Positions 13,696 to 28,853 of a stretch of DNA of 64,000 nucleotides are shown here, one piece after another. The notes below the pieces were generated by a model. The model saw only the letters and a program-made list of their open reading frames with translations. It made no database searches and was not told the DNA's origin. The number at the start of each line of letters is the position of its first letter. Position 1 is the stretch's first letter. The stretch covers positions 1,178,001 to 1,242,000 of the forward strand of contig NC_018656.1 in NCBI RefSeq assembly GCF_000299395.1. The letters are read 5' to 3'. A program made the position numbers and the translations under genes. The stretch comes from Candidatus Nitrosopumilus sediminis. Its GTDB lineage: Archaea; Thermoproteota; Nitrososphaeria; Nitrososphaerales; Nitrosopumilaceae.

Positions 13696-16600
13696 TCAGG
13701 AGCCTAATGGATCTTTTTGGTCATCATCCAAGTCATCAAGATAGTCTGCTATCTCTTCTGAACAAGGATCTACACCATTACCACATTCATCAACGGTTTG
13801 TTGAATCCAGCCTTCATAGACATTAGGAATTGCAAGAACTCCTTGTCCTCCCATTCCAGCATAACCAATTACAGGATCATCAATTGTTGTCTTAAACTCT
13901 TTAGTTAAGATGATTTTTCCTGCAATTTCTGCATCATATCCGTCTTTTGGATCAACTACAATTAGTGCATTTGAGAATTTGTTGGAAATATATGCATAGT
14001 ATCCACCATCTTCTTGTGCACCCCATTGTACACCATGGCATCCAGGATCACAAGGAAGTACAGATACAATTTCATCAATTGATGTATCTACAACAGTTAT
14101 TGCTGGACCAGTAGGTCCAATTAAATTGGCTGTAACCATCCATTTGTCATCAGGACTAACTGGAGTTTGAATTGGAAGTGCTACACCTACTTCAAGCAAA
14201 TCAATTTGATGAGTAATTTCTGCATCATCAATATCAATTACACTTAGAGTATTTCCAAGGAAATCAGCAGTATAATATTTTTCAGTACTTCCAAGCATTC
14301 CTGTTGCAATTGGTGCAATAAGAACAGATCCTCCACCAGTATGTTCTGCCTTGACAGATGTGTTATCTTCAAGGTTTACAATTGTAGAACTTAGGCTAAG
14401 AAAGTCTGGAGTTACCACATACTTACCATCACTACTAATCCAGTGACCATGAGGATGAGATGAATCGCCTGTAGAGATTTGTCTTGTAATCTCATAGGTA
14501 GTTGGATCAAGTTCGTTGATTGTTTCCTCACCATTCATTGCAATGTAGATTTTTCCAGTTTCTGGAGAAGTCATTACATGTGATGGGGATTGGCCAACAA
14601 AGTTGTCTTTAATCATTTCACCTGTTTCTCTGTCAATTACAACCATTCTAGAATCAAACCATTGTGTTTGATACACTACTTCATTTTTAGAATCAGTCCA
14701 CATGTTATGTGGATGGTTCATGTTGATTTCAGGAAGTGCAATTTTTTGATCAATACTCCAGTCGTTTGCATTAACTACAGTAATGGTTCCAGGTTTATCA
14801 TTTGGTGTTCCAGGATGATTCTTGTTTACAGTTTGTTCAAACTGTGTATTTACCCAGATTTCACCTACACCTTTTTGAAGTGGAGCCTGTCTGTCAGCAT
14901 TTGTAATTGGAACATTAGAATCTAATGCAGCACCTAATATCACATCTGGTGCGCCACCTGTGGAATTTGTGATTCCCAATGCAGTGGCTAATCCAATTAG
15001 ACTAGCAGTATCAGTGTGTAATGCAGCTACTACTTGTTCTGAGTTTGTAGTAACTAATGCAGGTACCACATTTACTTCCCAATTATCTTGGTTGTAATCT
15101 TTCCAGTTTGACGGATCAGAGATTACATAAAAGTCCTTTAACAATTCTAATGGCAAAGCATTAACGGGTCCAAGAGTTACTGGGAATTCCATATCATTAG
15201 TAACAGGATCAGGATACCTTGTTAGAATAGTCAAGTCATCAGACAAATCAAGTAAAGGCAATGTTGCACCACCAAGTGTAGATGATTTTACATTAGTTGT
15301 TGGATCATCAACAATTACAGCACTTATCATGTATGGGTGTATTTGACAAACAAAAACGTACAATCCAGGCTCATCAAGTGTTGCTGCAGAGCCGTCGGAA
15401 TTTGTCAAGAATGTAGAACCTCTAATACCTAATTGAGTATCAAAGAAAGCTACAGGAACATCGTTTGTAAGTAATCCATTACCTCCCAATGGGGAAGCTG
15501 CTGTAGGCCAGATCAATGAAGTAATAGTATGCTTTGTCTGAGAATCTTTCATGTTGAAAATCACTGTTTCGCCAGGATTAATTATTGCAAGTGATCGTCC
15601 CAAGGTATCACCAAATGCGGGTGAAATAACTTTGAGATAATCAAGGGGAAATCCTGTTCCAGGTCTAGGATCAACAGTTGGCAAACCAAGTGAGGTGAAA
15701 ATCGAATTTGCAGGAGCTAATGCTTCATCTAAATCATCAGCAATTCCAGCATTGAGAGTTTTCATCCAAAGTCCTGGTTCATCACTGAGAGTAAAGACAG
15801 CACCTACATCAGGTAATGTGTCATCACCTTCAAGGACCATCATCATTCCACTCATGCCTTGTTCCATATGGTTAAAGAAATGACAGTGATACATCCATCC
15901 TTCAGTTCCATCAATTCCGTTTTGGTTATCACTAACCTCAACTAAGAAAGTGTGTCTTTGAAGCGGAGTAATCTCTTTTACATCAATAATGTCAGCAGAA
16001 CCACCTTGAGATTCAACCCATCTATGACCATGCAAATGGAATGCATGAGTTTCGTCACCAATGCCTAAAACATGGTATCTAACTTTAGCACCATCTGATG
16101 CGTATAATGTTGGGTTTACCCAAAGAGGTGTTTGTTTACCACCGTTTTGATTATCAATTTCCATTCCATAGAAAATACTTTGTCCTAGTACGTCAGATGA
16201 AACCATCCAGAGAATGAATTCTTTTTCAATGTCATCTACCTTTATCTTGTCAATATTACCAGTACCGCTATTTACAAAGCCATCAACATTACCATTAGCA
16301 GGATTTACTATTACTGTTCCAAATAGTCCTACATCTTCTGCTCCAACCTCATTTTGGCTGAATGTATGATCATGATATGGCCAAGTTCCAGCAGTGCCGA
16401 GTCCTGCATCCCATGTATATTCTACAGATGAATTACATTCAGCAGCTGAAGTTTCTGCACCATTAACTCTATCATAGGTTGCATCATCACTAATGTCATA
16501 ATGGACACCATGTGTATGCATTCCAATGAAAAAGGTTTCTGCAGAACCAACTCCGCCATCAACAAAGTTTTCATCACATGCTTTGTTAGTTAATGTAATG

Positions 16601-16920
16601 TTGGCAGTATCGCCTTCTGTCATTACAATGGTTGGACCAGGAATTGAAGGGTCAGTGTCAAAGATTCCATTTGCTACTAAATCAGAACCATCCAAATCAT
16701 ACTCTACCATTCGATAAGCATACATGCCATCAGGCATTTTTACAGCTTCCATTTTGATGGTATGGTGTGCTCCGTTAGGTAAAGCTTCAGCAGCAAACAA
16801 AGGAACGTCTACATTTTCGTATGTCGTTGTATCAGTTTTTTCAAAATTGATTGTAAAAACAGATGCGAGAGTTATTGATAGTATTACAGTTGTCAGTATC
16901 ATTATTTGTGTTCGTTTCAA
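13696..16920 (-). CDS. Exported multicopper oxidase-cupredoxin-beta-propeller fusion
   Basis: A 1074-residue exported protein; the start is TTG at 16920, followed at once by a signal segment (residues 7-24). Part one is a multicopper oxidase with all four copper motifs: HTHG (135-138), HDH (183-185), HAFHLHGH (292-299) and HCH-x3-H-x3-GM (345-356). Part two is an extra cupredoxin with His464, Cys525, His528 and Met531. Part three (about 700-1040) is a YVTN-type beta-propeller with repeats such as VVNANDWSIDQKI and YTADFLGNTLSVID. The C-terminus is acidic. Multicopper oxidases are abundant in ammonia-oxidising archaea and are candidates for hydroxylamine/NO or electron-transfer chemistry, or for copper handling. 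The substrate is not known. Confidence 0.88.
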   Translation of the reverse strand: MKRTQIMILTTVILSITLASVFTINFEKTDTTTYENVDVPLFAAEALPNGAHHTIKMEAVKMPDGMYAYRMVEYDLDGSDLVANGIFDTDPSIPGPTIVMTEGDTANITLTNKACDENFVDGGVGSAETFFIGMHTHGVHYDISDDATYDRVNGAETSAAECNSSVEYTWDAGLGTAGTWPYHDHTFSQNEVGAEDVGLFGTVIVNPANGNVDGFVNSGTGNIDKIKVDDIEKEFILWMVSSDVLGQSIFYGMEIDNQNGGKQTPLWVNPTLYASDGAKVRYHVLGIGDETHAFHLHGHRWVESQGGSADIIDVKEITPLQRHTFLVEVSDNQNGIDGTEGWMYHCHFFNHMEQGMSGMMMVLEGDDTLPDVGAVFTLSDEPGLWMKTLNAGIADDLDEALAPANSIFTSLGLPTVDPRPGTGFPLDYLKVISPAFGDTLGRSLAIINPGETVIFNMKDSQTKHTITSLIWPTAASPLGGNGLLTNDVPVAFFDTQLGIRGSTFLTNSDGSAATLDEPGLYVFVCQIHPYMISAVIVDDPTTNVKSSTLGGATLPLLDLSDDLTILTRYPDPVTNDMEFPVTLGPVNALPLELLKDFYVISDPSNWKDYNQDNWEVNVVPALVTTNSEQVVAALHTDTASLIGLATALGITNSTGGAPDVILGAALDSNVPITNADRQAPLQKGVGEIWVNTQFEQTVNKNHPGTPNDKPGTITVVNANDWSIDQKIALPEINMNHPHNMWTDSKNEVVYQTQWFDSRMVVIDRETGEMIKDNFVGQSPSHVMTSPETGKIYIAMNGEETINELDPTTYEITRQISTGDSSHPHGHWISSDGKYVVTPDFLSLSSTIVNLEDNTSVKAEHTGGGSVLIAPIATGMLGSTEKYYTADFLGNTLSVIDIDDAEITHQIDLLEVGVALPIQTPVSPDDKWMVTANLIGPTGPAITVVDTSIDEIVSVLPCDPGCHGVQWGAQEDGGYYAYISNKFSNALIVVDPKDGYDAEIAGKIILTKEFKTTIDDPVIGYAGMGGQGVLAIPNVYEGWIQQTVDECGNGVDPCSEEIADYLDDLDDDQKDPLGS

Positions 16921-19730: not shown

Positions 19731-20930
19731 ATGACTCAAAAAGGAATTCTTGCATTTTCAGGAGGATTAGATACTTCAGTGGTTGTAAAATATCTTCAAG
19801 ATGAACATGATATGGATGTCATCACAGTAACTGTAGATGTTGGACAAGGTGATGATTGGAAAAAGATTGCAGCTAAAGCAAAAAAACTTGGCGTAAAAAA
19901 ACATTACAACATTGATGCAAGAAAAGAATTTGTCAAAGACTACATTTTCCCATCAATTAAAGCAAATGCTCTTTATCAAAAAAAATATTGTCTTGCAACA
20001 GCACTTGCCAGACCATTAATTGCAGAAAAAGTTTTAGAAATTGCAAAAAAAGAAAAAGTAACATCACTTGCACATGGTTGTTCTGGAAAAGGAAATGATC
20101 AAGTTAGATTTGACATTACATTACGTTCTGGATCAGATCTTCCCATCATAGCTCCAATTCGAGACAAAAATTTGGATAGAGATACAGAATTAAAATTTGC
20201 AAAAAAGCATGGAATTGAAATTGATACTGTAGCAAAAAAATTCAGTATTGATCAAAACTTGTGGGGTCGTGCAATTGAGGGAGGAGTGTTAGAGGATCCA
20301 TACAACGAACCACCTGACGATGCATTCATTTGGGTTAAAACAAAAGATTTACCTGACAGACCAACATACTTGGAAATTAAATTCAGCAAAGGAATACCAG
20401 TCGGAGTGGATGGAAAAACAATGGAGCCTCTAAAACTTATTGAATACATTAACAAAAAAGCAGGCAATGCAGGTGTAGGAATAGTAGACCATATAGAAGA
20501 CAGAGTTGTCGGAATTAAATCTAGAGAAGTATATGAAACACCAGCAGCAACTTGTCTAATTGAAGCTCATACGGATTTAGAAAAAATGGTCCACACTAAA
20601 CACGAAAACAAGTTCAAGTCAATTATTGATGATGAATGGGCATATTTGGTCTATTCAGGTCTTTGGCAAGATCCTCTCAAAGCAGATCTGGATGGATTCA
20701 TCGAAGCATCACAAAAACCAGTTTCAGGAACTGTGAAACTGAAATTGTACAAAGGAGGCCTAAGAGTTGTCGGAAGAAAGTCTGTTAATTCATTGTATAG
20801 TCACGATATTGCAACTTATGGGGTAGAATCAACTTTTGATCAAAGATTGGCCAAAGGATTTGTAGAATTGTGGGGAATGCAGTCAACAGAAGCTAATAAA
20901 TTACAAAAGAAAAGGTCAACAAAAACATGA
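19731..20930 (+). CDS. argG: Argininosuccinate synthase
   Basis: A 399-residue enzyme joining citrulline and aspartate with ATP. The PP-loop ATPase motif is at the N-terminus (ILAFSGGLDTSVVVKYL). The citrulline/aspartate segments YCLATALARPLIA and HGCSGKGNDQVRFD are present. The frame is open back to an ATG at 19680, but the ATG at 19731 (MTQKGILAFSGG) gives the family's length and start. Its stop overlaps the lysW start (ATGA), opening the arginine/lysine operon. No argH is in this window. Confidence 0.95.
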   Translation: MTQKGILAFSGGLDTSVVVKYLQDEHDMDVITVTVDVGQGDDWKKIAAKAKKLGVKKHYNIDARKEFVKDYIFPSIKANALYQKKYCLATALARPLIAEKVLEIAKKEKVTSLAHGCSGKGNDQVRFDITLRSGSDLPIIAPIRDKNLDRDTELKFAKKHGIEIDTVAKKFSIDQNLWGRAIEGGVLEDPYNEPPDDAFIWVKTKDLPDRPTYLEIKFSKGIPVGVDGKTMEPLKLIEYINKKAGNAGVGIVDHIEDRVVGIKSREVYETPAATCLIEAHTDLEKMVHTKHENKFKSIIDDEWAYLVYSGLWQDPLKADLDGFIEASQKPVSGTVKLKLYKGGLRVVGRKSVNSLYSHDIATYGVESTFDQRLAKGFVELWGMQSTEANKLQKKRSTKT

Positions 20931-21094
20931 ACTGCCCAGAATGTGATGCAACACTAAACATCCCAGACGATGCCTCAGTAGGAGAAATTGTCTCCTGTCC
21001 TGATTGTGGCGCTGACTTTGAAATCTCAAAAAAAGACGGATCAAATGTTGAGCTTAAACAAGCAGAAACCGTAGGCGAAGACTGGGGAGAGTAA
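20927..21094 (+). CDS. lysW: LysW amino-group carrier protein (copy 1, EDWGE end)
   Basis: A 55-residue acidic carrier. Two CxxC knuckles (CPEC at 3-6 and CPDC at 24-27) form a zinc ribbon. The conserved C-terminal EDWGE supplies the terminal Glu whose gamma-carboxyl is joined to the substrate amino group. The ATGA overlap with argG and the TAATG overlap with the ATP-grasp gene show tight coupling. Position next to argG and argX suggests that this copy mainly carries glutamate towards ornithine, but sharing with lysine synthesis is possible. Confidence 0.93.
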   Translation: MNCPECDATLNIPDDASVGEIVSCPDCGADFEISKKDGSNVELKQAETVGEDWGE

Positions 21095-21951
21095 TGTCAA
21101 AAGTTTGTATTGTCTTTGACCGCCTAAGAGCCGAAGAGAAGATGCTGCAAAAAGAAGCATCGGAATTAGGACATGACGCGTTGATGCTTGATGCAAAAAT
21201 CACTCAAATCAATACAGACAGTAAAAAAGAAGATTTTGATTTGGGAGATATTGTTTTAGAAAGATGTGTGAGTTATTTTAGAGGTCTTCATTTTACTGCA
21301 AGTCTAGAATTTATGGACATTCCTGTGTTAAACAAATTTGAGGTAGCAAACATTTGTGGAAACAAAATGTTCATGACGCTACTTTTGAAAAAAAATAACA
21401 TCCCAACACCTAAAACATATTTTTCATTTTCAAGTGAAAGTGCAGCAGAGAACTTGGAAAAAGTAGGATTCCCCTTAGTCATTAAACCAGTAATAGGCAG
21501 TTGGGGAAGAGGAGTGATGCCACTCAAAGACAAAGATGCAATGGAGGCAATTTTTGAAATCAGAGATATTACAGATAGTCCTCATGACAGAATTTACTAT
21601 TTACAAGAATTAATCAAAAGACCTCCAAGAGACATTAGAGTGATCACAGTAGGTGACGAGCCAATTGCTGCCATGTATAGAAAATCTTCAGGCGGATTTA
21701 AGACCAATATCGCATTGGGAGCAGATCCAGAACTTTGTGAGATCACAAAAGAGATGGAGGACATGGCAGTTAAAGCATCAAAAGCTATGGGTGGAGGAAT
21801 TTTAGGAATTGATATGATGGAAGATGAGGAAAAGGGCCTAGTAGTCCACGAAGTAAACAACACAGTAGAATTCAAAGGACTGGCAAGAGTTGCACAACGA
21901 AATATACCAAAAGAAATGGTAGAATTTGCTCTAAACTACATAAGAAAATAA
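21094..21951 (+). CDS. argX: LysW ligase, ATP-grasp (ArgX/LysX family, copy 1)
   Basis: A 285-residue RimK-type ATP-grasp ligase. It attaches glutamate or alpha-aminoadipate to the LysW C-terminus. Seen motifs: the N-terminal VLERCVSYFRGLHFTAS, the ATP-grasp Lys in PLVIKPVIGSWGRGV, and the metal-binding HEVNNTVEFKG near the end. Copy 2 at 26.9 kb has EYKN where this one has EFKG. That segment lies at the substrate pocket in the family. Neighbours (argG upstream, arginine-type order) make glutamate-specific ArgX the better guess here; this is inference. Confidence 0.85.
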   Translation: MSKVCIVFDRLRAEEKMLQKEASELGHDALMLDAKITQINTDSKKEDFDLGDIVLERCVSYFRGLHFTASLEFMDIPVLNKFEVANICGNKMFMTLLLKKNNIPTPKTYFSFSSESAAENLEKVGFPLVIKPVIGSWGRGVMPLKDKDAMEAIFEIRDITDSPHDRIYYLQELIKRPPRDIRVITVGDEPIAAMYRKSSGGFKTNIALGADPELCEITKEMEDMAVKASKAMGGGILGIDMMEDEEKGLVVHEVNNTVEFKGLARVAQRNIPKEMVEFALNYIRK

Positions 21952-21979: not shown

Positions 21980-23026
21980 ATGAAAGTTGGGGTTGTAGGA
22001 GCATCTGGATATGTAGGCGGAGAAACACTTCGTCTTCTTGTTAACCATCCAGATGTTGAGATCGCAATGGTCACATCAAGACAGCATGTAGGAGAATATC
22101 TACACAGAATCCAACCAAGTTTGAAAGGATTTACCGATCTAACATTCTCAGAATTAGATTATGACAAATTAACAGACAAATGTGATTTAGTTTTTACAGC
22201 AGTTCCTCATGGAACTGCAACTGAAATTGTAAAAGCATTGTACGACAGAGGAATCAAAGTAATTGATTTGAGTGCAGATTATAGATTGCATGATCAAGAG
22301 GCATACGATAAATGGTATGGCTGGGAGCATCCACATCCAGATTATTTAGCAAAATCAGTATTTGGAGTTCCAGAATTACATAGAGAAGAAATCAAAAAAG
22401 CACAACTTGTTTCTTGCCCAGGATGTATGGCCGTTACATCAATGTTAGCACTTGCACCACTAATTAGAAATGACATTATTGATACTGAACATATTGTAGT
22501 AGACTCAAAAATTGGCTCATCAGGTGCAGGTTCAGGTTCAGGAACTGCACATGCAATGAGAGCAGGAGTAATCAGACCATACAAGCCAGCAAAACACAGA
22601 CACACTGGTGAAATTGAACAAGAACTAAGCGAAATTGCAGGAAAGAAAATTCATGTTTCAATGAGTCCACATGCAGTAGATGTAGTCCGTGGAATCTTGT
22701 GTACAAATCACACATTCATGAAAAAAGACATTGAAGAAAAAGAATTATGGAAATTATATCGTCAAGCTTATGGCGAAGAAAGATTTGTCAGATTAATCAG
22801 AGATAAAAAAGGATTGTATAAATTCCCAGATCCAAAATTCTTAGTTGGTTCAAACTTTTGTGATATCGGATTCGATATAGATGAAGATAACAACAGATTG
22901 ATAGCAATGTCGGCATCAGATAATTTAATGAAAGGTGCAGCAGGTTCTGCCATTCAAAACATGAATGTAATGTGTGGTTTTGATGAAATGGACGGACTCA
23001 GATACACTCCACTAACTCCTGTTTAG
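21980..23026 (+). CDS. lysY: LysW-gamma-glutamyl/aminoadipyl-phosphate reductase
   Basis: A 348-residue ArgC-family reductase. The NADPH fold opens with VGVVGASGYVGGETLRLL, and the catalytic Cys is in VSCPGCMAVTS (about residue 150). It reduces the carrier-bound acyl phosphate to the semialdehyde. Only one copy is present beside two LysW/ATP-grasp pairs, so it likely serves both arginine and lysine synthesis. The downstream kinase begins 2 nt after the stop. Confidence 0.92.
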   Translation: MKVGVVGASGYVGGETLRLLVNHPDVEIAMVTSRQHVGEYLHRIQPSLKGFTDLTFSELDYDKLTDKCDLVFTAVPHGTATEIVKALYDRGIKVIDLSADYRLHDQEAYDKWYGWEHPHPDYLAKSVFGVPELHREEIKKAQLVSCPGCMAVTSMLALAPLIRNDIIDTEHIVVDSKIGSSGAGSGSGTAHAMRAGVIRPYKPAKHRHTGEIEQELSEIAGKKIHVSMSPHAVDVVRGILCTNHTFMKKDIEEKELWKLYRQAYGEERFVRLIRDKKGLYKFPDPKFLVGSNFCDIGFDIDEDNNRLIAMSASDNLMKGAAGSAIQNMNVMCGFDEMDGLRYTPLTPV

Positions 23027-23028
23027 AA

Positions 23029-23832
23029 ATGATCACAATCAAAATCGGCGGAAGTGTAGTAGATGATTTACATCCATCAACAATTTCAGATATTAAAAAA
23101 GTAGCAGAGACTGAGGGAATAATTATTGTACATGGAGGTGGAAAAGAGGTTACAAAAGTATGTGAGCAATTAGGAAAAGAACCAAAATTTGTAACATCGC
23201 CAAGCGGCATCAAAAGTAGATACACAGACAAAGAGACTGCAGAAATTTTTACTATGGTTATGTCAGGTAGAATCAATAAAACAATCGTTCAAATGCTTCA
23301 AAAAAATGGCGTTAATGCAATTGGTCTTTCAGGAGTAGATGCCAGAGTGATTGAAGCAGATAGAAAAAAGAAATTGCTTATTGTTAATGAAAAAGGTAGA
23401 AAACAAGCAATTGATGGTGGATATACAGGAAAAATTAGAGAAGTAAATTCAAAATTCATCAAATCTCTCTTAGATCAAGGGCTCACACCAGTTATTTCAC
23501 CCATAGCAATGAGTGAAGAATCAGAATTTCTCAACATAGACGGAGATAGAGCTGCAGCATATGTTGCAGGCAAGGTAGGTTGTGATAAAGTATTATTCAT
23601 CACAAATGTTGACGGATTGTTAATGGATGACAAACTTGTTACAAAATTGACACTGGCAGAAGCAAAAGAGATCAGACCAAAGATTGGGCCAGGGATGGAA
23701 AAGAAAATTTTGGCATCTACTGAAGCATTAGATATGGGAGTTAAAGAAGCACTGATTGGAAATGGACAAAGGGAAAATCCAATATCATCAGCTATTGCAC
23801 ATAATAATTGTACGGTGATTGAACATGAGTGA
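23029..23832 (+). CDS. lysZ: LysW-gamma-glutamyl/aminoadipyl kinase
   Basis: A 267-residue amino-acid kinase of the ArgB/LysZ family. Motifs: IKIGGSVVDD at the N-terminus, IIVHGGGKEVT, GLSGVDARV and NIDGDRAAAYVAGK. It phosphorylates the carrier-bound Glu/aminoadipate side chain. Its 3' end overlaps the aminotransferase start by 8 nt. Probably bifunctional for both pathways. Confidence 0.92.
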   Translation: MITIKIGGSVVDDLHPSTISDIKKVAETEGIIIVHGGGKEVTKVCEQLGKEPKFVTSPSGIKSRYTDKETAEIFTMVMSGRINKTIVQMLQKNGVNAIGLSGVDARVIEADRKKKLLIVNEKGRKQAIDGGYTGKIREVNSKFIKSLLDQGLTPVISPIAMSEESEFLNIDGDRAAAYVAGKVGCDKVLFITNVDGLLMDDKLVTKLTLAEAKEIRPKIGPGMEKKILASTEALDMGVKEALIGNGQRENPISSAIAHNNCTVIEHE

Positions 23833-25006
23833 AGATCAATACATGGGCAATCTCTATCAGAGATTTCCAGTAACAATTGAAAAAGGTGTTGGATCTCATG
23901 TGTGGGATATAAACGGAAAAGAGTATATCGATTGCATGGGAGGATACGGAGTAGCTCTAGTAGGTCACAAAAATCAAAGAGTTAACAATGCAATCAAAGA
24001 ACAGATTGACAAAATCATTACAGTTCATAGTTCATTATACAACAAAACAAGAGAGGAATTTTTGACAACACTAATTGGTTTAGCACCAAAAGGGCTCACA
24101 CAAGTTCATCTAAACAACAGTGGTGCTGAAGCAATAGAAGCTGCAATGAAATTTGCAAGAAAGTTTACAGGCAAAAAAGGAATGGTTGCAATGAAAGGTT
24201 CCTATCATGGAAAATCATTTGGTGCATTATCATTAACATTTAATCCAAAATACAGAAAAGCATTTGCACCACTAGTAGAGAAAGTTTCATTTGCATCTTA
24301 TGGAGACATTGAATCTTTACGTTCAGTAATTGATGATGATACCGCATTTGTAATTTTAGAACCAATTCAAGGGGAAAGTGGAATTATTGTTGCACCTGAT
24401 GGATTTTTACAAGATGTTAGAAAATTATGTGATGAAAAAGGAATTGTGTTAATTTTTGACGAAATTCAAGCTGGTTTAGGTAGAACCGGACGATTATGGG
24501 CTTGTGAACATTGGAATACAGTACCAGACATCCTATGCCTTGCAAAAGGAATTGCAGGCGGTGTACCAATGGGAGCAACTCTTGTAAAACCAGAAATTTT
24601 AGCTGCAATTAGTAAAGGAGAGCATTCATCAACATTTGGAGGAAACCCAATCTCATGTGCAGCAGGAATTGCAGCTCTTAAAGCAATTACTGAAGACGGA
24701 TTGATTGAAAATTCAGAGAAAATGGGCAAATTGTTTAGAGAAGGATTAGAAAAATTAAAAGAAAAACACACAATGATCAGAGAAGTTAGAGGTAAAGGAC
24801 TAATGATAGGTGTCGAGATGAAATTTGAAGTTAAAGATATTTTGATGGGATTAATAAAAAAAGGAGTTCTGATGTTGTATTCTGGAAGAAATATACTTAG
24901 AATTCTCCCCCCATTAGTAATATCTGAAGAAGATGTAACAAAAGTTTTACATGCTCTTGATTCCATACTTACAGAAGAGGAACAAAAAAGAGATGTACAA
25001 GGATAA
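23825..25006 (+). CDS. lysJ: LysW-ornithine/lysine aminotransferase
   Basis: A 393-residue class III PLP aminotransferase. The PLP Lys lies in LCLAKGIAGGVPMGAT, the cofactor Asp in LIFDEIQAGLGRTG, and SGAEAIEAAMKFARK is present. It aminates the carrier-bound semialdehyde with glutamate as donor. I chose ATG 23825 over the in-frame TTG 23819. A GGTGAT Shine-Dalgarno sits at 23814-23819 just before it. The 3' end overlaps the regulator gene by 14 nt. Confidence 0.92.
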   Translation: MSEDQYMGNLYQRFPVTIEKGVGSHVWDINGKEYIDCMGGYGVALVGHKNQRVNNAIKEQIDKIITVHSSLYNKTREEFLTTLIGLAPKGLTQVHLNNSGAEAIEAAMKFARKFTGKKGMVAMKGSYHGKSFGALSLTFNPKYRKAFAPLVEKVSFASYGDIESLRSVIDDDTAFVILEPIQGESGIIVAPDGFLQDVRKLCDEKGIVLIFDEIQAGLGRTGRLWACEHWNTVPDILCLAKGIAGGVPMGATLVKPEILAAISKGEHSSTFGGNPISCAAGIAALKAITEDGLIENSEKMGKLFREGLEKLKEKHTMIREVRGKGLMIGVEMKFEVKDILMGLIKKGVLMLYSGRNILRILPPLVISEEDVTKVLHALDSILTEEEQKRDVQG

Positions 25007-25412
25007 AGTAGACGAAAAAATTATCGGATATTTGAAAGAAGATTCTAGAGAGTCATTTGTGGATATCGGTAAAAAACTAAAGTTGTCAGAATCAGCAGTT
25101 AGAAGACGTGTAAAAAATTTGGTAGACAGCGGAACAATTAAGAAATTTACTTTGGAGCTCGGAGAGGAAAATTCAACCAGTGCAATTGTTTTGGTTTCGG
25201 TTGATTCTGCAACGGACACATCCAAGGTATCACTAAAGCTTGCAAAATTAGAAGGAGTAAAAACAGTTTATGAAATTACAGGGCAGTATGACATTACAAC
25301 AATTATGAGTGCTACAAATATTGCAGAAATTAACAGTAGTATTGATGCACTCAGAAAGATTCCAGGTGTGGTAGATACCAATACAGTCATCATTTTAAGA
25401 AAAATAATCTAA
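24993..25412 (+). CDS. lysM: Lrp/AsnC-family regulator, LysM-like
   Basis: A 139-residue regulator. An N-terminal helix-turn-helix (VDIGKKLKLSESAVRRRVKN) is followed by a RAM ligand domain. In Sulfolobus an Lrp-family LysM gene is clustered with the lysine genes and its DNA binding responds to lysine; position here suggests the same job. ATG 24993 is preferred to an upstream in-frame start at 24951, which would add 14 residues with no family match. It is the last gene of the first arg/lys operon. Confidence 0.85.
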   Translation: MYKDKVDEKIIGYLKEDSRESFVDIGKKLKLSESAVRRRVKNLVDSGTIKKFTLELGEENSTSAIVLVSVDSATDTSKVSLKLAKLEGVKTVYEITGQYDITTIMSATNIAEINSSIDALRKIPGVVDTNTVIILRKII

Positions 25413-25530: not shown

Positions 25531-26697
25531 ATGAAAGATCCGAATCACTATGCAAATATCTATAACGCATATGACAAAAATCCAAAAAAAATCAGAATTT
25601 TGGATAGTACATTGAGAGAAGGAGAACAACATCCAGGTGTTTCATTTACAAACAAACAAAGAATCCAGATTGCATGGATGTTGGATTATTTTGGTGTAGA
25701 TCAAATTGAAATTTCACCAGTAGTTTCAAATGATCATAAAGAAGCAACTAAAACAATTATCAAACAAGGGCTAAAGGCAGATATTGTTTCTCATGGTCGT
25801 GCACTAAAAGAAGATATTGACATTTCATTAGATTGTGATGCAAAGTGGTGTGCAGCATATTTAGGAATTTCAGATATTCATCTTAAAGATAAATTACGAA
25901 TTTCAAGAGAAGAAGCACTTGAAAGAGCAGTAGAAACAGTAGAGTATGCAAAGTCACATGGATTAAAAATACGATTTACAGTTGAAGATGGAAGTAGGGC
26001 GGAACCAGAATTTCTATTGAAAGTTTGTAAAGCTATTGAAGAAGCAGGTGTAGATAGAATTAGTCTTCCAGATACAGTAGGAATTTTACGTCCAATTGGA
26101 ATGCATAATTTTGTCAAAAAAGTAAGAGAAGTTATAGACGTTCCATTAGACGCACATGTTCATAATGATATTGGATTTGCAGTAGCTAATGCATTTTCAG
26201 CATGTGATGCAGGAGTAGATCAAATTCATACTACTATTGATGGTATTGGTGAAAGAACAGGAATCCCTCCACTTGCAGAAGTTGCAGTAGCCTTAACTTA
26301 CCTTTACAAATCACCAAATGATTTCAGATTGGACATGTTGCTGGATTTATCCAGATTGATTGAAGAATACACATCAATCAAACCATATGATTCTAAACCA
26401 ATTGTAGGTTCATCAGCATACAAACACAAAGCAGGAACACATCTTGCAGCTATACTCAAAAACCCTGCGGCCTATGAGCCAATTCCTCCTAGAGCAGTTG
26501 GAAATAGAAGAAGAATAGTGTTTGGAGAACTAGCTGGAAAAACTGGCGCTGCATATTTGATGTCATTGTTAGGATTGGAAAAAGATGATGAAGGGGCAAA
26601 AGCTGTAGCTGCAGGATTAAAGGGCCTCAGAATGGGTGATCTGATAGAGATCCCTCTAGAAGACAGACTTGAAAAAAAGATAATTAATGATAAATAA
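25531..26697 (+). CDS. Homocitrate synthase
   Basis: A 388-residue DRE-TIM enzyme condensing 2-oxoglutarate and acetyl-CoA, the first committed step of alpha-aminoadipate lysine synthesis. The signature is ILDSTLREGEQHPGVSF (about 23-39); metal-binding HVHNDIGFAVANAF follows at about 208-221. EGEQHPG is typical of homocitrate synthase rather than isopropylmalate synthase (EGxQxPG with different flanks), and the lysine gene context agrees. It leads the operon with lysW2, lysX and lysK. Confidence 0.88.
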   Translation: MKDPNHYANIYNAYDKNPKKIRILDSTLREGEQHPGVSFTNKQRIQIAWMLDYFGVDQIEISPVVSNDHKEATKTIIKQGLKADIVSHGRALKEDIDISLDCDAKWCAAYLGISDIHLKDKLRISREEALERAVETVEYAKSHGLKIRFTVEDGSRAEPEFLLKVCKAIEEAGVDRISLPDTVGILRPIGMHNFVKKVREVIDVPLDAHVHNDIGFAVANAFSACDAGVDQIHTTIDGIGERTGIPPLAEVAVALTYLYKSPNDFRLDMLLDLSRLIEEYTSIKPYDSKPIVGSSAYKHKAGTHLAAILKNPAAYEPIPPRAVGNRRRIVFGELAGKTGAAYLMSLLGLEKDDEGAKAVAAGLKGLRMGDLIEIPLEDRLEKKIINDK

Positions 26698-26719: not shown

Positions 26720-26887
26720 ATGTCAAAATGTGAAGAATGTGATGCAGATATTTCCGTTCCAAGTGATGCACTTGAAGGAGAGATCGTAACATGTCCGGAA
26801 TGTGGCGCAAGTTTTGAATTAGTTCAAGGTTCAAACGGTTTCGATCTAAAGCCAGCCCAAACGGTTGGCGAGGATTGGGGACAGTGA
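26720..26887 (+). CDS. lysW: LysW amino-group carrier protein (copy 2, EDWGQ end)
   Basis: A 55-residue paralogue of the carrier at 20.9 kb, with CEEC (4-7) and CPEC (25-28) zinc knuckles and the conserved TVGEDWG before the end. The last residue is Gln (CAG, 26882-26884) in place of the canonical Glu. In characterised LysW the terminal Glu is the attachment residue. The CAG overlaps the GTG start of lysX (CAGTGA). Gln might be deamidated, used differently, or reflect a sequence error (GAG). Position next to homocitrate synthase suggests a lysine-dedicated carrier. Confidence 0.9.
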   Translation: MSKCEECDADISVPSDALEGEIVTCPECGASFELVQGSNGFDLKPAQTVGEDWGQ

Positions 26888-27726
26888 ATCCTGACGTTAC
26901 CATTCTTTACGATACCATCCGTTGGGAAGAAAAAGCTCTGCTAGAAGCCGGTAAAAAAAAGAACATTAACATCCAGATGGTCGATTGTAAGAAATTGGCA
27001 ATAGATTTAGAAAAAAAACCTGAAGATTATGGCATTGTTATTCAAAGATGTGTAAGTTACTATAGAAATCTTCATTCAACTGCAGCTCTTGAAGGAATTG
27101 GTGTGAAGGTAATCAATTGTCTAAACACAGGGGTATTTGCAGGAAATAAATTATTCACACATATGTTACTAAAGAAATTTGGAGTGCCGACACCTGATGC
27201 AACTGTTGCTTTTTCAAAAGAAGCAGCTTTACAAGCATTAGATTCACAAGGATACCCAAAAGTGATCAAACCAACAGTTGGTAGTTGGGGCAGATTAATT
27301 TCAAAATTAAATGACAGAGATGCAGCTGAGGGGATCATTGAAAGCAGAGAGAACATGTATCCAATCTATCAAGTTCATTATTTGGAAGAATTTGTAAAAA
27401 GACCTCCAAGAGATATTAGAGCAATAATGATAGGAGACAAAATTGTAGCAGCAATTTATCGTACTTCTAAACATTGGAAAACCAACATGGCATTAGGAGG
27501 CACAGCAGAGCCATGTAAAGTAACGCAAGAAATGGAAGAAATGTGCATTAAAGCAAAACATGCAATTCAAGGAGATATTGTAGGTGTCGATTTGATGGAA
27601 AGTGATGAGAAAGGATTGGTCGTACATGAAGTAAACAACACTACAGAATACAAGAACACAGTAAGAGTGTGTGAAGTTGACATTCCTTCCTTAATGTTAG
27701 ATTATGCACTGAAGATGGAAAAGTAG
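26884..27726 (+). CDS. lysX: LysW ligase, ATP-grasp (LysX family, copy 2)
   Basis: A 280-residue ATP-grasp paralogue of the enzyme at 21.1 kb. Motifs include IQRCVSYYRNLHSTAA, VIKPTVGSWGRLIS and HEVNNTTEYKN. The start is GTG 26884, overlapping the lysW2 stop (GTGA). Lying in the homocitrate synthase operon, it is the better candidate for alpha-aminoadipate-LysW ligase. The EYKN versus EFKG difference from copy 1 is consistent with different substrates. Confidence 0.86.
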   Translation: MNPDVTILYDTIRWEEKALLEAGKKKNINIQMVDCKKLAIDLEKKPEDYGIVIQRCVSYYRNLHSTAALEGIGVKVINCLNTGVFAGNKLFTHMLLKKFGVPTPDATVAFSKEAALQALDSQGYPKVIKPTVGSWGRLISKLNDRDAAEGIIESRENMYPIYQVHYLEEFVKRPPRDIRAIMIGDKIVAAIYRTSKHWKTNMALGGTAEPCKVTQEMEEMCIKAKHAIQGDIVGVDLMESDEKGLVVHEVNNTTEYKNTVRVCEVDIPSLMLDYALKMEK

Positions 27727-27728
27727 GA

Positions 27729-28853
27729 ATGGACACTTTTACAGTAACACCAAGATTTGCAGTAAAGATGTTAGAGAAAGCACTCAGACTGTATACACCT
27801 TCTTTGAGTGAAAAACCAATGGCAGAATTCTTAGCAGACAAATGTGATGATTTAGGTTTTGAAGATATTCAGATTGATGAAGTAGGGAACATAATAGCAA
27901 AGAAAGGTTCAGGTTCTCCAAAAATAATGTTATGTGGACATATGGATGTAGTTCCAGGAAAAGTCAAAGTTAGAAAAGAAGGGGATGCATTGTATGGTAG
28001 AGGTGCATCAGATGCTAAAGCACCACTTATGGCAATGTTGTTTGCTGCAGCATCAATTCAAAACAACAATGGCACAGTATTTTTTGTTGGAGCTGTAGAT
28101 GAAGAAGGAAATGCAACAGGAATTAAAAATCTCGTAAAGAAAGAAAGAGGTATCGATTATGCAGTATTTGGCGAACCAAGCGGAATTAAACAAGTCACTA
28201 TTGCATACAAAGGAAGGCTGGCAATCAATCTCAAAATCAGTGTTGATGACAGTTCTCATGCAAGTGCACCATGGCTTTCAAAAAATGCAATTCAAGAATC
28301 TATGATTTTTGTAAAAGAACTAAAAGACAGATTAGAAGCAAATCAGGATGGTAGAACTAAAGGAATGTTACTTACAGTTACCATGACAGAAATCAAAGGA
28401 GGGACAAGTCACAATGTAACACCAAAGGATTGTGAGACCACATTTGATATTAGAATTCCTGTAGATATGAATTGTAAAACTATAGAACAGAAAATTGCAA
28501 CACTTGTAAAAGAAATTGCTCAAGAAAGAGAAGTTGAAGCATTTTATTCAATTCTTGATGAAACAGAGCCATTTGAGGCATCTCATACTTCGCCTTTAGT
28601 CAGAGCATTTACCCTTGGCATTATGGAAGTTGAGCATTCAAGGCCAACTCTTATCAGAAAAACAGGTACTGGAGACATGAATGTTTTAGGCAATCAATGG
28701 AGTATTCCTGTAGTCACATACGGTCCAGGAGACCCACATGAGGCACATACAATTGATGAAAAAGTTTCAATTGATGAATATCTGAGAGGAATTGAAATTC
28801 TCAAGAAAACACTACAGCACTTAAAAAGACTTCATGATAAAAAAATTAAGTAA
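27729..28853 (+). CDS. lysK: LysW-lysine/ornithine hydrolase (M20 family)
   Basis: A 374-residue zinc peptidase of the ArgE/DapE/LysK type. Metal-site segments are LCGHMDVVPG (His/Asp) and GAVDEEGNATG (Glu pair), with the substrate-side GPGDPHEAHTIDE near the C-terminus. It releases lysine (and probably ornithine) from the carrier. It starts 2 nt after lysX and shares one base with the diphthine synthase start (TAATG). Confidence 0.9.
   Translation: MDTFTVTPRFAVKMLEKALRLYTPSLSEKPMAEFLADKCDDLGFEDIQIDEVGNIIAKKGSGSPKIMLCGHMDVVPGKVKVRKEGDALYGRGASDAKAPLMAMLFAAASIQNNNGTVFFVGAVDEEGNATGIKNLVKKERGIDYAVFGEPSGIKQVTIAYKGRLAINLKISVDDSSHASAPWLSKNAIQESMIFVKELKDRLEANQDGRTKGMLLTVTMTEIKGGTSHNVTPKDCETTFDIRIPVDMNCKTIEQKIATLVKEIAQEREVEAFYSILDETEPFEASHTSPLVRAFTLGIMEVEHSRPTLIRKTGTGDMNVLGNQWSIPVVTYGPGDPHEAHTIDEKVSIDEYLRGIEILKKTLQHLKRLHDKKIK

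Follow-up and report, generated by a model that had tools for sequence, protein, structure and literature searches.

An encoded C-terminal glutamine in the LysW carrier protein of ammonia-oxidizing archaea

The second of two LysW genes in the DNA studied here, a window of 64,000 nucleotides, encodes Gln at the C-terminal position of the reactive Glu. Comparative genomic evidence makes it probable that the product is a working alpha-aminoadipate carrier, which is made in an amidated, inactive form, is hydrolysed from Gln to Glu, and from then on acts conventionally. In the carriers that have been studied, the terminal Glu bears the substrate on its gamma-carboxyl, the product formed in vitro is carrier-Glu54-substrate, and replacement of the C-terminal Glu by Ala (E54A) abolishes arginine synthesis in a haloarchaeon (PMC10433800). 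The carrier, its ligase and the pathway are already known; from the sequences compared, what appears to be new is the Gln-encoded end of LysW, its distribution and the freedom with which it alternates with Glu. The open-access literature, to which our search was confined, yielded neither the string EDWGQ nor a description of any of these three features, and a Nitrosopumilus metabolic model mentions a single LysW gene.

Genomic context of the two LysW genes

The closed 1.69-Mb genome that contains the window has just two LysW genes. Copy 1 is located between argG and argX, copy 2 between a homocitrate-synthase-like gene and lysX-lysK, and the two copies enclose one set of lysZ, lysY and lysJ. 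The following features were identified (window coordinates):

20927-21094, plus strand: LysW/ArgW copy 1, ending EDWGE (GAG TAA; tail TVGEDWGE), above the archaeal LysW/ArgW cut-off
21094-21951, plus strand: ArgX, ATP-grasp ligase paired with copy 1 and second of the genome's two ligases (TIGR02144, 293.4 bits)
21980-23026, plus strand: LysY/ArgC reductase (TIGR01850, 418 bits)
23029-23832, plus strand: LysZ, [LysW]-aminoadipate/glutamate kinase (NF010662, 303 bits; cut-off 194)
23819-25006, plus strand: LysJ/ArgD aminotransferase (TIGR00707, 435.5 bits; cut-off 410)
24951-25412, plus strand: LysM-type Lrp/AsnC regulator (NF040947, 190.8 bits; cut-off 180)
25531-26697, plus strand: homocitrate synthase/isopropylmalate synthase-like protein, encoded immediately before lysW copy 2 (TIGR02146, 377.8 bits, under the cut-off of 413.6; PF00682 and PF22617)
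26720-26887, plus strand: LysW copy 2, a 55-aa zinc-ribbon carrier protein ending EDWGQ (NF041070 and PF21344 profiles)
26882-26884, plus strand: C-terminal Gln codon CAG of copy 2, where the reactive Glu would be expected
26884-26887, plus strand: GTGA overlap of the lysX GTG start and the lysW TGA stop
26884-27726, plus strand: LysX, ATP-grasp ligase paired with copy 2; contains GSWGR and the ATP-grasp residues D236/E239/E249/N251 (TIGR02144, 329.5 bits; cut-off 275.6)
27729-28853, plus strand: LysK, M20 metallo-hydrolase that frees the product from the carrier, and possible carrier deamidase (TIGR01902, 281 bits; cut-off 163)

Translation of the open reading frame at 26720-26887 gives MSKCEECDADISVPSDALEGEIVTCPECGASFELVQGSNGFDLKPAQTVGEDWGQ, with the tail TVGEDWGQ followed by the stop TGA (26885-26887). 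This agrees with the preliminary description of this DNA, in which copy 2 was read as ending GEDWGQ, with CAG as its last codon, and copy 1 as ending EDWGE. Copy 2 scores above the cut-offs of NF041070 (88.9 bits against 75) and PF21344 (49.7 bits against 27), and both copies fall under the TIGR01206 cut-off of 53.2 (33.7 for copy 2, 39.7 for copy 1). Two CxxC pairs (CEEC and CPEC) supply the four zinc-binding Cys of copy 2; the protein has a C-terminal EDWG motif, and its gene adjoins that of a LysX/ArgX-type ligase with GSWGR. Since the encoded tip is Gln (CAG) in place of the substrate-bearing C-terminal Glu that characterises the LysW/ArgW family, the protein is classified here as a homologue and variant of that family rather than as a proven classical member; deamidation could still supply the Glu. 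The relatives of LysX in the PDB are 3vpd, 1uc8, 5k2m and 3vpb; its GTG start occupies 26884-26886, and the reading frame is open as far as a TTG at 26875. LysK is the only above-cut-off copy in the genome. Elsewhere in the window, the minus strand (13696-16920) encodes a 1074-aa protein that, judged by eye, is multicopper oxidase-like and continues into beta-propeller-like repeats.

Conservation and spread of the terminal Gln

A search with copy 2 against 84,980 species genomes returned 80 named orthologues, nearly all from Nitrosopumilus and its relatives. The last codon is CAG (Gln) in 76 and GAG (Glu) in four, and the VGEDWG that precedes it does not vary among the 80. The preliminary description had named as a refutation orthologues that all end in Glu, with Gln confined to this assembly; the opposite was found. 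A specific, albeit imperfect, pattern for EDWGQ followed by a stop was then used to scan 398 Thermoproteota genomes, and located such a site in 62 of 63 genomes sampled from the family to which the window belongs, in all genomes of two further ammonia-oxidizer families of the same order (4/4 and 6/6), and in some members of the more distant Thermoproteota families f12, f17, f35, f11 and f38. A few matches arose by chance: in G020, G129 and G367, and at one of the two G209 sites, the frame continues into TGG, and G058 has a true LysW that ends EDYGE. Gene content and named loci suggest that family f1 corresponds to Nitrosopumilaceae, and f3 is probably Nitrososphaeraceae. In most Nitrosopumilaceae, the arginine copy has a Glu tip and the lysine copy a Gln tip. 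Both LysW copies end in Gln in a deep-branching genome of that family (L193 and L194 of G082).

To judge from these comparisons, the Gln tip is neither a sequencing error nor an oddity of one genome. Both a base error and a constraint from the lysX start codon had been raised as reasons for a Gln that would be neutral or forced, and the latter has a basis in the gene structure: the GTGA overlap reaches into the codon in every one of the 80 orthologues, also in the four that have reverted to Glu. Of the proposal that the bases of the Gln codon form the lysX GTG, the overlap itself stands, but only the third base of the codon is common to both genes. GAG TGA would therefore keep the GTG start, and the four Glu revertants indeed read GAGTGA, which leaves a constraint on the base by which the Gln and Glu codons differ unsupported. 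In other families, Gln is encoded without any overlap, as CAA TAA, CAG TAA or CAG TAG, and its conservation across families, in closed genomes and also in the form of CAA, led us to reject a base error. The comparison of orthologues and families thus rules out both causes, and a neutral or forced Gln is scarcely credible.

Genomes whose only carrier ends in Gln

Three closed Nitrososphaeraceae genomes (G209, G322 and G350) have a single LysW, and its tip is Gln, encoded as CAA TAA in two of them and as CAG TAA in the third. Their cluster is otherwise complete, in the order argG-argX-lysY-lysZ-lysJ-lysM-HCS-lysW-lysX-lysK, and each genome encodes exactly two ligases of the LysX/ArgX type and a single LysK above the cut-off; from these complete clusters, the species are likely to synthesise both lysine and arginine themselves. 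At the corresponding loci (L172, L173 and L174, of G322, G350 and G209, respectively), argW has been lost from its place between argG and argX, and argX follows argG after ~25 bp. Two further genomes (G009 and G017) combine one Gln-tipped LysW with two ligases, and two others (G386 and G221) have two carriers each, all with a Gln tip.

These genomes bear on the suggestion that copy 2 is a scaffold or decoy, in which case copy 1 would carry both substrates and copy 2 would merely help LysX. The window's genome does have a second carrier with Glu, and in Sulfolobus the two pathways share a single LysW (PMC10433800). However, G209, G322 and G350 have a Gln carrier only, beside both ArgX and LysX, so the Gln form must itself work as a carrier; the carriers of G386 and G221 all end in Gln, and the VGEDWG tail is invariant in the 80 orthologues. 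The scaffold reading, which the preliminary description had offered, is strongly disfavoured by these data and was discarded on the sole-Gln-carrier genomes as highly improbable. In some species, one Gln carrier would appear to serve both the lysine and the arginine pathway, in which case Gln is not a lysine-only label.

Exchange between Glu and Gln

LysW proteins extracted from all loci comprise 141 Gln tips and 100 Glu tips, counts that are not frequencies because of overlap between the loci and a selection that was in part guided by the pattern. For a fairer sample, LysW was fetched by profile from genomes that mostly match neither the Gln nor the Glu pattern. Its tails read EDYGE, EDFGE, EDWGGE or EDWGE, always with a Glu tip, and the exceptions were one family's LysW-like protein with a long Glu/Trp tail and three weak matches that are not LysW. 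All LysW tails of the EDWG/EDYG type that were read have Glu or Gln alone at the tip, including those with an EDYG, EDFG or EDWGG motif; none of the residues that a single base change would derive from Glu (Lys, Asp, Gly, Ala and Val) occurred there among the loci read. The LysW-like zinc ribbon with the long Glu/Trp-rich tail (...EEEEW replacing EDWGE) belongs to family f28 (L232, L233 and L234, of G133, G062 and G157, respectively), and no LysX/ArgX-like ligase was found within the 1.5-kb flanks of these loci.

On a tree of 84 partner ligases, which was built by a quick method and has some long branches, Glu and Gln were exchanged at least 9 times, and 7 of these changes are forced by well-supported branches. 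They include a reversion from Gln to Glu within Nitrosopumilus (L056, L072, L095 and L098).

The partner enzymes do not follow these switches. The ligase residues GSWGR (the element that recognises the carrier tail), RDIR, R193, N201, D236, E239, E249, N251 and E255 do not differ between ligases with a Glu partner and those with a Gln partner; no column of the ligase alignment changes consistently in five Glu/Gln contrasts, and adaptation of the ligase to Gln was rejected. The ligases of the revertant clade differ at positions 85, 172 and 277 only, none of which is among the invariant residues. Likewise, a comparison of conserved residues revealed nothing in LysK that tracks Gln or Glu, and adaptation of LysK was rejected.

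Proposed activation of the carrier and alternative chemistries

An ATP-grasp ligase requires a carboxylate. Given this requirement and the unchanged ligase residues, conversion of Gln to Glu before charging is the simplest account of the data, and we consider such a deamidation likely. LysW copy 2 would be synthesised in an amidated, inactive form, and its C-terminal Gln would be hydrolysed once to Glu. LysX would then activate the Glu gamma-carboxylate as usual and attach alpha-aminoadipate, the shared LysZ, LysY and LysJ would turn the carrier-bound substrate into LysW-lysine, and LysK would free the lysine, leaving LysW-Glu for the next round.

No dedicated deamidase or amidase is present among the genes identified in the cluster, and LysK is the sole hydrolase in the operon. 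LysK normally hydrolyses a gamma-amide at the terminal residue of the carrier. It would be the likeliest deamidase, the terminal Gln being equivalent to its gamma-amide bond with ammonia as the leaving group; we assign it this role tentatively, at somewhat less than an even chance. Deamidation by LysK is compatible with the comparison described above but not specifically supported by it, because the residues of LysK do not track Gln and Glu. Counted against the deamidation model is the strict Gln in the lysine copy of Nitrosopumilaceae, which is hard to explain if one hydrolysis makes it equal to Glu.

Two other chemistries would leave the terminal residue unhydrolysed before charging. RimK itself makes alpha-linked glutamate tails, and the ligase matches the RimK family (TIGR00768). 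LysX might accordingly join the substrate to the alpha-carboxyl of Gln by an ordinary peptide bond while the side chain stays an amide; a Gln end retains a free alpha-carboxylate, and a deamidase would be unnecessary. With this linkage, however, the side chain would be under less constraint, but the tips observed are Glu and Gln alone; at least 7 changes of linkage would be needed without a consistent change in the ligase; and the haloarchaeal E54A variant loses its function although its alpha-carboxyl remains (PMC10433800). The alpha linkage is unlikely and ranks behind deamidation. Alternatively, LysK or another enzyme might, in an ATP-independent exchange, replace the amide of Gln with the amine of the substrate, the amide serving as the activated group. 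Similar bond energies and the gamma-amide hydrolase in the operon speak for such an exchange, but an ATP-grasp ligase is also present and fully conserved with Gln carriers, each carrier could be used in this way only once because later rounds start from Glu, and efficient transpeptidation is not known of M20 hydrolases. Direct transamidation is accordingly very unlikely. That the carrier is charged without becoming Glu at all, through the alpha-carboxyl of Gln or an activated Gln amide, with two LysW linkage chemistries switched freely, appears improbable, and conversion of Gln to Glu by deamidation is the reading that we prefer.

Comparison with known systems

The LysW/ArgW proteins of Thermus thermophilus, Sulfolobus, Thermococcus kodakarensis and Natrinema gari have in common with copy 2 the four-Cys zinc ribbon, the acidic EDWG C-terminus, the adjoining LysX/ArgX ATP-grasp ligase and the enzymes of the same pathway. 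The encoded tip is Glu in these studied carriers and in the PDB sequences (3vpb, 3wwl and 5k2m), whereas in copy 2 it is Gln.

A similar masking is known from Pup, which ends in Gln in some actinobacteria (PupQ) and is deamidated by Dop, an enzyme that also cleaves Pup conjugates (PMC8599861). Like LysW, Pup is a small protein joined through the side-chain gamma-carboxyl of its last residue, which is Gln or Glu depending on the lineage; however, Pup tags target proteins, while LysW carries a metabolite, and no homology of LysW to Pup, or of LysK to Dop, is claimed. A LysK that both deamidates and releases would parallel the action of Dop on Pup. A profile search of the window's genome found no member of the Pup-ligase/Dop family (PF03136), and a Dop-like LysW deamidase was rejected on this ground; since Dop and PafA are absent there, only the working principle is compared, and LysW is not regarded as a member of the PupQ/Dop system. 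One genome of the same order encodes a PF03136 protein (G409:C102:1928-3112; E 1e-64), which is absent from the other 20 genomes searched and represents either contamination or an archaeal pupylation-like gene.

Carriers of the LysW type are also encoded on bacterial plasmids, with the tail RDWGQ in Streptomyces and RDWGE in Rhodococcus. The respective biosynthetic clusters (L251:7974-15761, plasmid of Streptomyces sp. NBC_01558; L252:7980-15386, plasmid of Rhodococcus fascians) comprise a LeuA-like or hypothetical gene upstream and genes for a RimK-family ligase, ArgC, a kinase or hypothetical protein, a protein of the gamma-glutamyl-GABA-hydrolase family and an AMP-binding protein. Their core gene order is the same with Gln and with Glu, and a gene of the gamma-glutamyl-amide-hydrolase family occupies the place where the releasing enzyme is expected. 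In the two clusters read out, the gene content looks like specialised metabolism rather than lysine or arginine synthesis, and a LysK-type M20 hydrolase, which the window has, is not annotated.

Conclusions

In most sampled ammonia-oxidizing archaea, the reactive residue of the lysine carrier, and in some species also of the arginine carrier, is not encoded as such. An annotated reactive Glu cannot be assumed for LysW carriers. If the terminal Gln is deamidated, the pathway would include an undescribed activation step like that from PupQ to PupE, and LysW would be a second case of a tag with a glutamine-masked gamma-carboxyl; if it is not, the chemistry of LysW would be broader than thought.
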